Shown piece by piece: positions 24,170 to 29,090 of a stretch of DNA of 64,000 nucleotides. Position 1 is the stretch's first letter, and every line of letters starts with the position of its first letter. This stretch comes from Mariluticola halotolerans (lineage in GTDB: Bacteria > Pseudomonadota > Alphaproteobacteria > Rhizobiales > Devosiaceae). Where the stretch lies: contig NZ_CP090960.1 of the NCBI RefSeq assembly GCF_021611515.1, positions 2,480,001 through 2,544,000 of the forward strand, read 5' to 3'. The notes under the pieces are model-generated. The model was not told the origin of the DNA. It made no database searches and saw only the letters and a program-made list of their open reading frames with translations. The translations under genes were made by a program, and so were the position numbers.

Positions 24170-26236
24170 ATGAAACGCAAATTCGCGCTGATTGGTGGCG
24201 TCAAGCTTTCGACGTCAATTCTGTTCCTGGCTATCGGCAGCCTGGCGCTGGCTATCGCTGCGGTGGCGGTCGTTGTTTATATCAATCTGTCGTCCGGCAC
24301 GGCGCAGATTGCCCGGGACACCCAGCTTTCCAATCTGCGTATTGCGGCCACGATATTTTCAGGCTCCATGCCCGGCACCGAGCTGACCTGGACTGAAGAT
24401 AACGAAATTGACCGGCTGACCGTTTGGGCCATGCCTGAGTTCAGCAATAACAACCTGATCGATGAAATCACCAAGGTGACGGGCGAAACCGCGACCATGT
24501 TCGCCTGGGATCCCAAGACCCAGGATTTCTGGCGGCAGACGACGAATATCGTCAAGGCTGACGGTGAGCGCGCCATAGGCACGCCGCTGGGCAAGGATGG
24601 CCCTGTCTATCCGGTCGTCACCAAGGGTGAAACCTATCTGGGTGAAGCCAATATCATAGGCGTGCCCTATTTCACCGCCTACAAGCCGATCTTTGACAAG
24701 CAGGATCAGGTTGTCGGTATTCTTTATGTGGGCGTGGAGAAGGCCAAAGTCGTCGGTGTGCAGAATGATACATTCAATATGCTGCTGACCGTATCGGGGA
24801 TCGTTCTGGCGATTATCAGTGCCCTTGTATTCGTTGCGGCGCGTGTTTTGATAAAACCGATTTCGCAACTGGTCACGACCATGGCGGCGGTCACAAAAGA
24901 CCCGGAATCCGCGGACGTGCCTTATACCAATTATCGCAACGAGCTGGGCGAGATGGCCCGGGCGGTCGAGGTGTTCCGCGAAAACGGCATGCGGGTCAAC
25001 TCGATGACCGAAGAGGAAAAAGCGGCATCGGCACAACGCCAGGTTGACCGGACCCAGATGATGCAGGAGCTGCGTTCAGCCTTTGGTGAGGTTGTCGATG
25101 CGGCCATGGCGGGCGACTTTTCCAAGCGGGTGGACACCCAGTTCCCGGATGCGGAGCTCAATGCACTTGCTGCCAGTGTCAACGGGTTGGTGGAAACGGT
25201 GGACCGGGGTATCGGTGAGACCGGGCAGGTGATGGCCGCTCTTGCAGAGACCGACCTTACGCTGAGGGTCGAGGGGCATTACGAGGGGGCATTTGCCAAA
25301 CTCAAAGATGATACCAATGCGGTGGCCGACAAGCTGACCGAGATTGTCAGCCAGCTGCGGAAAACGTCACGTGGATTGAAAACGGCAACGGGGGAAATTC
25401 TTTCCGGTGCCAATGACCTGTCTGAACGCACGACCAAACAGGCGGCAACAATTGAAGAGACATCGGCGGCGATGGAGCAATTGGCCCACACGGTGATGGG
25501 CAATGCCAGCAAGGCCCAGGATGCCTCGGGCAGCGCGCAACAGGTGTCGGCGGCAGCCGAGGATGGTGCGGAGGTCATGCATCACGCCAATGAAGCCATG
25601 GCCCGCATTACCTCATCGAGCTCGAAGATTTCAAATATTATCGGCATGATTGATGACATTGCCTTCCAGACCAATCTTTTGGCGCTGAACGCCTCTGTTG
25701 AGGCGGCGCGGGCCGGGGAAGCGGGCAAGGGTTTTGCGGTAGTCGCGGTGGAAGTGCGGCGGCTGGCCCAGTCGGCGGCTGAAGCCTCCTCTGAGGTCAA
25801 GGTTCTGATCGAACAGAGTGCGGCCGAGGTCAATGACGGTTCGAAACTGGTGTCGAGTGCGGCCGAGAAGCTTGAGAGCATGCTGGAGGCGGCGCGCAAG
25901 AGCAATGCGCTGATGGAAGACATTGCCAAGGACAGCAAGGAGCAGGCCGCCTCGATTGAAGAGGTCAATACTTCGGTGCGTCAGATGGATGAAATGACCC
26001 AGCACAATGCGGCCCTGGTGGAGGAAACCAATGCCGCGATTGAGCAGACCGAGGCGCAGGCATCGGAACTCGACCGGATCGTTGATATCTTCGTGCTTGA
26101 TGATGCCGTCTTGTCGGAGGATGCGCCCCGCCCCGCCGTTGGCGCGCGGGCGCTGCAAGCCAAGGTTGCGGAAGCGGCCAAGTCCTATGGCGCGCATGGC
26201 AATGCAGCGGTGAAGCAGGACTGGAATGGATTCTAG
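24170..26236 (+). CDS. Methyl-accepting chemotaxis protein with periplasmic Cache-type sensor
   Basis: 688 aa chemoreceptor. TM1 is at about 13-38. The periplasmic domain (40-204) shows a Cache pattern ending [14 protein letters not shown], and TM2 is at about 205-227. Then come three HAMP-like segments (first with [17 protein letters not shown], second [13 protein letters not shown], third [13 protein letters not shown]) and the signalling hairpin with [20 protein letters not shown]. The C-terminus DWNGF resembles an xWxxF CheR/CheB tether. ATG 24170 follows GGGGGA by 7 nt. No ligand can be read. Confidence 0.93.
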
Positions 26237-26345
26237 GCACCTGCCAATCCTTGTTCTCTCTCTGGGCGAGGGGCCAAGTATCGGCGTATGACCGAATAGT
26301 AAGACTTGATGTGATGCTGGTTTTAAACGGGTATCAACTTGAAGG

Positions 26346-26380
26346 GCGGGTGCTTAAGCACCTGCTCTTTTTGCGTTTTT
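26346..26380 (+). terminator. Rho-independent terminator after the first chemoreceptor
   Basis: GCGGGTGC (26346-26353) and GCACCTGC (26358-26365) pair with one G-T wobble around TTAA, followed by TCTTTTT and a second T-run. It separates the first chemoreceptor from the small Cache gene, which therefore needs its own promoter in the AT-rich stretch 26380-26460. Confidence 0.85.
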
Positions 26381-26479
26381 TGTCAATAAGTCCATAATAT
26401 GACGATTACAGATATTGTTAAGTATTTTCTACTATTCGTCTTATTTGACGGCTGGAAGGGCCGAGGAGAGGGAGTAGTT

Positions 26480-27049
26480 ATGAAAACCATTTTTACCGCC
26501 GCAATAATGGCGACAGCTTTGGCTGCCGCACCAGTTTTTGCCAATGAATTTGCCGATCAATTGACCGAACTTGCCAATGGCAAAGTGAAAGAGATTGCAC
26601 AGAACCCGGAACTGGTTGCCGCCATTGAAGCGCAGAATGCCGAGACGGGTGGTTATGATCAGGCCAAGATCGACAGCCTTGATACCCAGTGGCGTGCAGA
26701 GGTTGACGCGTCCAGCAAGCCCTTGATCGACAGCGTTCTGTCAAACGATGCCTCGCGCTACCTCATGAGTGTGCAGGAAGAGAGCGAGGGGCTGTTCACT
26801 GAAATCTTTGCCATGGATGGCAAGGGGCTGAATGTGGGCCAGAGCGGTGTCACCTCGGACTATTGGCAGGGCGATGAAGGCAAGTGGCAGAACACATTTG
26901 GCGCCGGCGCCGGTTCTGTCGATCTTGGCGATGTCGAGCAGGATGAATCCACACAGACTTTCCAAAGCCAGGTCAGCATTCCGGTGCTGGATGCGGCCGG
27001 CCAGCCGATCGGTGCGATCACCTTCGGCGTGAATGTGGAAATGCTGTAA
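26480..27049 (+). CDS. Stand-alone secreted Cache/PDC-like sensor protein
   Basis: 189 aa. A clear signal peptide ([21 protein letters not shown], cleavage near 21/22) is followed by a single globular domain. Its pattern fits a periplasmic Cache/PDC fold: N-terminal helix with [18 protein letters not shown], central [17 protein letters not shown], and final strands [20 protein letters not shown]. There is no membrane anchor and no signalling domain. GGAGAGGGAG gives a strong ribosome-binding site for ATG 26480; the upstream in-frame start at 26399 is rejected. It lies 41 nt before the second chemoreceptor, so a ligand-binding partner role is the natural inference. Confidence 0.85.
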
Positions 27050-27090
27050 GCCAGCTGGGCTTGAGGCCTGACACGACAAGGAAAAATATT

Positions 27091-29040
27091 ATGGTCAAAG
27101 TTTCTTTGAACCTGAAACTGCTGATGCTGGTAACATTTGCGGTGACGGTGATTGCCGTCACTATTATCGCTATCAGCTCGATGTCAGGCCTCCGGCAGCT
27201 GATTGCGGCGAATGAAAAATCAGAGAACCAGATTGCCGAGCTTTTGGCGAGTGAACATGGTGGCAATATCAAATTCGGCAAAGGTGAAAACCTTGATGCC
27301 GTGTTTGATGGGTTTGCCGCCGATCCGGCCTTTCGCTTTGCCTATGCGGGGGCGGTGAAGCTGGAGGGCGAATTGCTGACCGAGAAAACAGCAGACGCCG
27401 ATCTTTCGGGCCGGGCGGTGGATCTGGGCAAGAGCGCAATTGCCGAACTTGCCGAACAATCAACGAATGTGGGCAGCTATCATCTGGTGGCGGTGCCGGC
27501 GCGCTTTGGCAAGGACAATGATGTTGTCGGTGCGCTGGTGGTGGGCTGGGACCAGACAGCCAGCATTAACGCAGCGATCGGGTCAGCGGTGCAAACCGCG
27601 CTGATTGCCCTGGCAATTGCCGGGGCGGCGATGGCCGGGCTGGCGCTGGTGCTGAAATACATGGTCAGCGATCCCTTGAAGCGGCTGACGACGACCGCCG
27701 TTGAACTGGCCAATCGCAATTTCGATGTCGAGGTTCAGGGCACAAAGCGCGGCGATGAGCTGGGCGAGATGGCGCGTGCCGTGGAAGTTTTCCGGGAGAA
27801 CGGTATCCGGGTCAATTCAATGACCGAGGAAGAGAAAGCGGCCTCGCAGCAGCGGCAGGTTGAGCGCACGCAGATGATGCAGGAATTGCAGCGGGCGTTT
27901 GGCGAAGTGGTTGATGCGGCGGTGGCCGGTGATTTCTCGAAACGGGTCGATGCGGAATTCCCGGATGCGGAACTCAATAATCTGGCCGGATCGGTGAACA
28001 ATCTGGTCGCGACAGTGGATCGCGGCGTGGGCGAGACCGGCTATGTGCTCAGCGCGCTGGCGGAAACCGACCTGACCCAGCGGGTGAAGGGCGATTATGA
28101 AGGCGCGTTTGCCAAGCTGAAGAACGACACCAATGCGGTGGCGGACAAGCTGACCGAGATTGTGGGGCAATTGCGCGATACCTCGGGGGCGCTGAAAACG
28201 GCGACCGGGGAAATCCTTTCCGGGGCCAATGACCTGTCGGAGCGGACCACCAAACAGGCGGCGACGATTGAAGAGACCTCGGCGGCGATGGAGCAATTGG
28301 CCAATACGGTGCGCCAGAATGCGCAGCAGGCTGATGAGGCGGCGAGCAAATCGCAATCTGTCAGCCAGACGGCTGAGCAGGGCGGCGAGGTGATGGGCCG
28401 GGCCAATGAGGCGATGGAGCGGATTACCTCTTCAAGCGCCAAGATCTCGAACATTATCGGCATGATTGATGACATTGCCTTCCAGACCAATCTTTTGGCC
28501 CTGAACGCCTCGGTTGAGGCGGCGCGGGCCGGTGAGGCGGGCAAGGGCTTTGCGGTTGTGGCCGTGGAAGTGCGGCGGCTGGCGCAATCGGCGGCGGATG
28601 CGTCGTCCGAGGTGAAGGCCTTGATCGAGCAGAGCGCTGGCGAGGTGAAGGGCGGTTCGGCCCTTGTGGCGGAAGCGGCCGAGAAGCTGGCGATGATGCT
28701 GTCGGGCATTCAGGAGAATTCCGCATTGATGGCGGGGATTGCCGAGGATTCCAAGGCGCAGGCGGCCTCGATTGACGAGGTCAATGCCGCAGTCCGGCTA
28801 ATGGACGAGATGACCCAGCACAATGCGGCCCTTGTCGAGGAAACCAATGCCGCTATCGAGCAGACCGAGGCGCAGGCGATAGAGCTGGACCGGGTGGTGG
28901 AAATTTTCACACTGACGAAGGCAAATGCAGAGTTGCCGGAAGGCGAAGATGCCATGGCGAGGCCAAAGTTAAAGGCTGCGGCCCGCGCCTATCTCAGTCA
29001 GGGCAATGCAGCACTCAGCCAAGACTGGGCCGAATTTTGA
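27091..29040 (+). CDS. Methyl-accepting chemotaxis protein, second paralogue
   Basis: 649 aa. TM1 is at about 8-29, a periplasmic segment of only about 135 residues follows, and TM2 is at about 166-190. From [18 protein letters not shown] onward it is nearly colinear with the first receptor: three HAMP-like segments, then the signalling hairpin with [20 protein letters not shown]. The C-terminus DWAEF is a good xWxxF CheR/CheB tether. The periplasmic region ends [18 protein letters not shown], a weak Cache-like echo. ATG 27091 follows AAGGAAAA. It probably shares an mRNA with the Cache gene 41 nt upstream. Confidence 0.93.
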
Positions 29041-29062: not shown

Positions 29063-29090
29063 AAAAGGTGCCGATGGGCACCTTTTCTAT
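29063..29090 (+). terminator. Rho-independent terminator after the second chemoreceptor
   Basis: AAAAGGTGCC (29063-29072) and GGCACCTTTT (29077-29086) form a perfect 10-bp stem around GATG, with further T after it. It lies 22 nt past the stop codon and closes the Cache-chemoreceptor unit. Confidence 0.9.

Follow-up and report, generated by a model that had tools for sequence, protein, structure and literature searches.

Among the extracytoplasmic sensors of bacteria, Cache domains make up the largest family, and as a rule they are built into the receptor. In binding-protein-dependent sensing, as by maltose-binding protein with Tar, LuxP with LuxQ and TorT with TorS, it is a soluble periplasmic protein that conveys the state of the ligand to the membrane receptor. 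The membrane protein YfiN carries a Cache-like CHASE8 domain, and its partner YfiR is a repressor and, to our knowledge, not a Cache protein. Within the YfiBNR system, the soluble periplasmic YfiR controls YfiN, a membrane diguanylate cyclase (PMC4887326). Stand-alone Cache domains are regarded as atypical (PMC12889525), and in Rhodopseudomonas a stand-alone Cache gene adjoins that of a ligand-gated channel and is predicted to share an operon with a receptor (PMC549065).

This work describes a gene pair of Mariluticola halotolerans that encodes a secreted Cache/PDC protein and a methyl-accepting chemotaxis protein (MCP), located in a window of 64,000 nucleotides, i.e. the whole stretch of DNA that was analysed (Table 1). 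We propose, with a probability of roughly two in three, that the two proteins form a bipartite chemoreceptor, of which the soluble part senses a small ligand, docks onto the co-encoded receptor and relays its state to CheA. By analogy, the logic would be that of binding-protein-dependent chemotaxis, with a soluble periplasmic partner thought to carry the ligand state, but this partner has a Cache/PDC fold rather than that of a periplasmic binding protein. The YfiBNR system likewise has a soluble periplasmic partner of a membrane protein, whereas its output is a diguanylate cyclase. The sCache_heme proteins (PMC12889525) and the Rhodopseudomonas protein (PMC549065) share with the window protein a Cache domain without anchor or output; here, however, a haem motif is absent and a widespread pairing links the protein to a chemoreceptor. 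A literature search, for which subscription journals were mostly beyond reach, yielded two partial parallels and no published description of a secreted Cache protein paired with a chemoreceptor.

Table 1. Features of the gene pair and its flanks (positions in the window)
Feature	Position	Strand	Details and basis
Terminator-like hairpin before the pair, dividing it from the first receptor	26341..26370	+	13-pair stem, 4-nt loop, then T-rich tail
Probable ribosome-binding site of the secreted protein, purine-rich	26463..26473	+	sequence
Secreted stand-alone Cache/PDC protein	26480..27049	+	ORF from ATG 26480 to TAA 27049, 189 aa
Signal peptide, first 21 residues	26480..26542	+	by eye and hydropathy
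Mature Cache/PDC domain (predicted), conserved motif D-x2-G-x-N-V-x2-S-x2-T-S-D-Y-W-Q-G-D-E	26543..27046	+	alignment, model
Probable ribosome-binding site of the receptor, AAGGA	27078..27082	+	sequence
Methyl-accepting chemotaxis protein, TM - sCache-like domain - TM - HAMP - HAMP_2 - MCP signal	27091..29040	+	649 aa, C-terminal end ...QDWAEF; domain search, TM segments
Periplasmic single-Cache domain of the receptor (predicted), without Pfam match	27175..27594	+	domain search, model, structural comparison
Terminator-like hairpin after the pair	29063..29086	+	10 pairs, hairpin scan

The secreted protein starts with a typical signal peptide, which is followed by a single domain. Cysteine, a lipobox and a second hydrophobic segment are all absent from it, as judged from sequence and hydropathy, and its sequence also lacks histidine. 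A hydrophobic N-terminus of this kind is found in 65 of 68 family members, a lipobox in none of them and a second membrane-like segment in one. Queried alone, the protein retrieved nothing useful by sequence from Pfam, NCBIfam or the PDB, with no Cache match in Pfam or NCBIfam; at E ≤ 0.1, 13 of the 68 relatives match MCP-like_PDC_1 and nine match dCache_1 (best 1e-6). An AlphaFold model, built with these 68 relatives in the alignment, reached a pLDDT of 92.1 and predicts a complete Cache/PDC fold. Its best structural matches (VIA-align) are V. cholerae DctB (Z 12.9, rmsd 3.2 Å, 119 aligned residues), DcuS (Z 12.2) and CitA (Z 12.0), and because of these Z scores the fold is judged real despite the missing match to a curated model. 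The protein is thus filed under Cache on the basis of its modelled structure, and its family has no dedicated Pfam model. Sequence, hydropathy and structure model therefore agree with what a preliminary description had read from the DNA, namely a signal peptide and one Cache/PDC-like domain without anchor or output.

The downstream gene encodes a receptor with the MCP layout, in which a periplasmic domain lies between two TM segments and is followed by HAMP (E 2e-12) and the MCP signalling domain (MCPsignal, E 7e-41). The two genes have an operon-like layout: 41 nt separate the end of the secreted-protein gene from the receptor ATG, as had been described, and the hairpin upstream of the pair bears out the terminator proposed to isolate it from the first receptor. 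A hairpin scan found 5 sites, compared with 3.5 ± 2.1 in shuffled sequences, so the two flanking stems are notable for their length, whereas the number of sites is not. The genome encodes CheA and 7 MCPs. The periplasmic part of the receptor had been taken for short and only weakly Cache-like, but this description had to be abandoned: the part between the TM segments spans ~140 aa and is modelled as a complete single-Cache fold (AlphaFold, pLDDT 93.7), with Z scores of 13.1 to WalK and 12.0 to CitA. It also resembles the periplasmic domain of LuxQ (Z 9.5-9.7). Pfam CHASE8 gives no match to this receptor domain and matches two of 41 relatives (best E 0.003). A recent duplication as the common origin of the secreted PDC protein and the receptor domain is unsupported, as profile comparison gave a probability of 17% and aligned only the last strands.

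The distribution of the pair was first surveyed by a pattern-based scan of species genomes, which returned 50 relatives of the secreted protein, 37 of them encoded directly upstream of an MCP. Since such a scan favours conserved peptides, the survey was repeated by searching whole genomes that had been drawn evenly, 101 from the window's family and 387 from Alphaproteobacteria. Within the family, the secreted protein is present in 22 of the 101 genomes. The window-type receptor domain occurs at 17 places, one of them a fragment on a small contig; the other 16 domains are near-complete, and all of these have the secreted-protein gene directly upstream. The class survey identified 75 PDC places in 54 of the 387 genomes. 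The neighbourhood of all 75 was read and counted by hand; once six long proteins that carry an extra N-terminal part were set aside, 69 stand-alone relatives remained. An MCP gene adjoins 62 of these 69, being located directly downstream on the same strand in 54 cases (once through a tandem second PDC copy), directly upstream in two and divergently in six. Chance adjacency would amount to ~1%, based on roughly 20 MCPs per genome of ~4,500 genes, the gene number being an estimate. All 80 tested genomes with the secreted protein encode MCPs, versus 38 of 80 genomes of the same class without it, a contrast that is partly one of genome size, as the latter set contains many small genomes.

Starting from the receptor, a PDC gene lies just upstream of the window-type domain in 10/10 cases at E ≤ 1e-30, 19/22 at E ≤ 1e-20 and 22/27 at E ≤ 1e-15, but in 1/16 of the weaker, more distant matches, which indicates that a specific sub-family of receptor domains goes with the secreted protein. 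Separation of the two genes, named in the preliminary description as a sign against a joint function, is therefore asymmetric: in the family and at the stricter class thresholds the receptor-domain type rarely occurs without an adjacent secreted protein, whereas the secreted protein also accompanies receptors of other types and is sometimes encoded by itself, above all in Rhodobacteraceae. In Ruegeria sp. TM1040, the pair consists of TM1040_RS01395 (annotated as PDC sensor domain-containing protein) and the MCP TM1040_RS01400, which are 41 nt apart; this receptor has a window-type domain (E 6e-17). At loci L202, L203, L208, L277 and L061 the order is reversed, with the PDC gene directly after a receptor gene with a partner-type domain.

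The partner is not always of the Cache type. In the class survey, 29 PDC copies precede an MCP without an sCache-type domain, which rules out that the pair is specific to Cache-type receptors. Of these 29 partners, most of those examined have a helical domain of the CHASE3 type or of another kind (Pfam CHASE3 in the scanned ones; motif), and the divergent MCP neighbours have long, probably helical periplasmic regions. The inheritance of partner type was analysed on a partly resolved tree of 123 PDC proteins. Partner type is strongly clustered on this tree, with 30 changes versus 65 in shuffles and none of 200 shuffles as low, and one supported branch of 34 rows contains only partners that are CHASE3-like or other MCPs without an sCache-type domain. 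Partner-domain type is thus inherited along with the PDC protein, and the strongly conserved pairing persists through exchange of the cytoplasmic modules of the receptor, including added PAS domains. Distances between PDC proteins correlate with those between receptor domains (r 0.51; partial 0.39 after removing the signalling domain), a correlation that still includes shared species history. No fusion of the PDC to the partner receptor domain in one protein was found.

The two proteins differ strongly in where conservation lies. Among 40 cognate pairs, 54 positions are kept at 90% or more in the soluble protein versus four in the receptor domain. As most pair loci had been found through the soluble protein, profile-found sequences were checked too, with 21 conserved positions in 75 soluble proteins versus three in ten receptor domains. 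Because of the 54 versus four conserved positions, ligand recognition is probably located in the soluble protein rather than in the receptor domain, as far as conservation in sequence can tell. The 21 positions include N53, D68, W71, E108, D113, N118, S122, D127, W129, Q130, D132, E133 and Q164 (window numbering), whose arrangement around the central sheet with its long loop suggests a ligand pocket.

In the proposed bipartite chemoreceptor, the secreted Cache/PDC protein would act as soluble periplasmic sensor that holds a small ligand in the conserved pocket and docks onto the periplasmic domain of the co-encoded receptor dimer. The Cache domain of the receptor, or the CHASE3-type helical domain in other lineages, would then relay the change via TM2 and HAMP as far as the CheA-controlling tip. 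That a soluble sensor and a membrane receptor belong to one system, as initially suggested, is strongly supported by the pairing across many lineages, the inherited partner type and the conservation within the soluble protein, although the receptor itself had been pictured wrongly. Against a two-part receptor counts that one protein family would have to dock on unrelated folds, both single Cache and CHASE3-type helical, which is unusual.

As the receptor owns a complete Cache domain, it might also bind the ligand itself, with the secreted protein as a modulator in the periplasm that acts as repressor or adaptor, much like YfiR on YfiN. The gene pairing fits this explanation equally well, and YfiR-YfiN sets a precedent for control of a membrane protein by a soluble periplasmic one (PMC4887326), but we consider it unlikely: the receptor domain is poorly conserved over the 40 pairs while the soluble protein is dense in conserved polar and aromatic residues, and the CHASE3-type helical partner domain of other lineages has no Cache pocket.

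Copies without a neighbouring receptor suggest another possibility. Besides seven of the 69 relatives in the class survey, such copies occur in many Rhodobacteraceae and on Azospirillum brasilense plasmids, and the loner genomes tested still encode MCPs, so that the PDC protein may act in trans. The secreted protein could accordingly be an independent ligand buffer, or a sensor in trans for several receptors, that adjoins an MCP gene only through co-regulation of chemotaxis. We regard this as improbable, because co-regulation alone explains neither the tie to one receptor-domain sub-family nor the partner type that follows the PDC tree. Most improbable is a redox or haem role unconnected to the adjacent receptor, as in the stand-alone c-type haem Cache domains with assigned redox roles (PMC12889525), since it leaves the tie to MCP genes unexplained and a haem Cache is ruled out for the window protein, which without Cys and His has no CXXCH haem site.

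Returning to the two-part receptor, PDC domains homologous to the secreted protein are found in anchored double-Cache histidine kinases (L194, L195, L197, L198), where they make up the membrane-distal module, and the arrangement may therefore be a split double-Cache receptor. Unlike in dCache receptors, the module is here secreted as a protein of its own, and no homology could be detected between the partner domain and the proximal module: the proximal modules of the PDC-bearing kinases belong to the same fold class but gave no significant match to the receptor-domain profile (best E 0.006 in a one-sequence search). For this reason, the split double-Cache reading is put forward as a hypothesis. 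Tentatively, and at somewhat less than even odds, the pairs could represent a widespread class of split chemoreceptors, in which a diffusible Cache sensor corresponds to the distal dCache module and the receptor domains (single Cache, CHASE3-type helical or long helical) serve as docking and relay platforms. If so, different genes would encode the sensing and the transducing part, and the binding proteins of chemotaxis would include stand-alone Cache proteins as a second kind. If these proteins are soluble inputs, many chemoreceptors with poorly conserved periplasmic domains would lack their ligand-binding part in isolation, and a screen for ligands that uses just the receptor domain would fail. 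The pairing offers a testable list of sensor-receptor couples, including that of Ruegeria sp. TM1040.

Loner PDC copies were recorded at L223, L241, L242, L247, L274, L278, L068, L070, L071 and L073, several of which are from Rhodobacteraceae; two loner genomes (G813 and G827) encode a receptor with a partner-type domain elsewhere. On A. brasilense plasmid p4 (L293), the loner is flanked by genes for a c-type cytochrome and an EAL-domain protein, next to cytochrome c oxidase genes. At L230 (G448), the PDC gene is broken by an in-frame stop, there is no adjacent MCP and only one MCP was detected in the genome, which suggests decay of the system.

The PDC domain also occurs in larger soluble proteins. 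Proteins of ~430-520 aa with a long N-terminal part and a C-terminal PDC were observed at L062:5008-6558, L060:5035-6561, L199, L201, L209, L210:1658-2950 and L240; the N-terminal part has PilJ-type helical repeats at L062, and the long protein at L210 follows a PDC-MCP pair. At L193:2132-3910, a periplasmic binding protein (Peripla_BP_5) carries a C-terminal PDC of the secreted protein's family. These PilJ-like and periplasmic-binding-protein fusions leave the stand-alone form unexplained.

The first receptor of the window (24170-26236) shares 66% identity over 527 aa with the receptor of the pair, almost all of it in the cytoplasmic part. The periplasmic domains of both receptors are unrelated, that of the first being of the sCache_3 type, and one of the two receptors therefore arose by a duplication in which the input domain was exchanged. 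At its C-terminal end each receptor has a W-x2-F motif that resembles a CheR tether.
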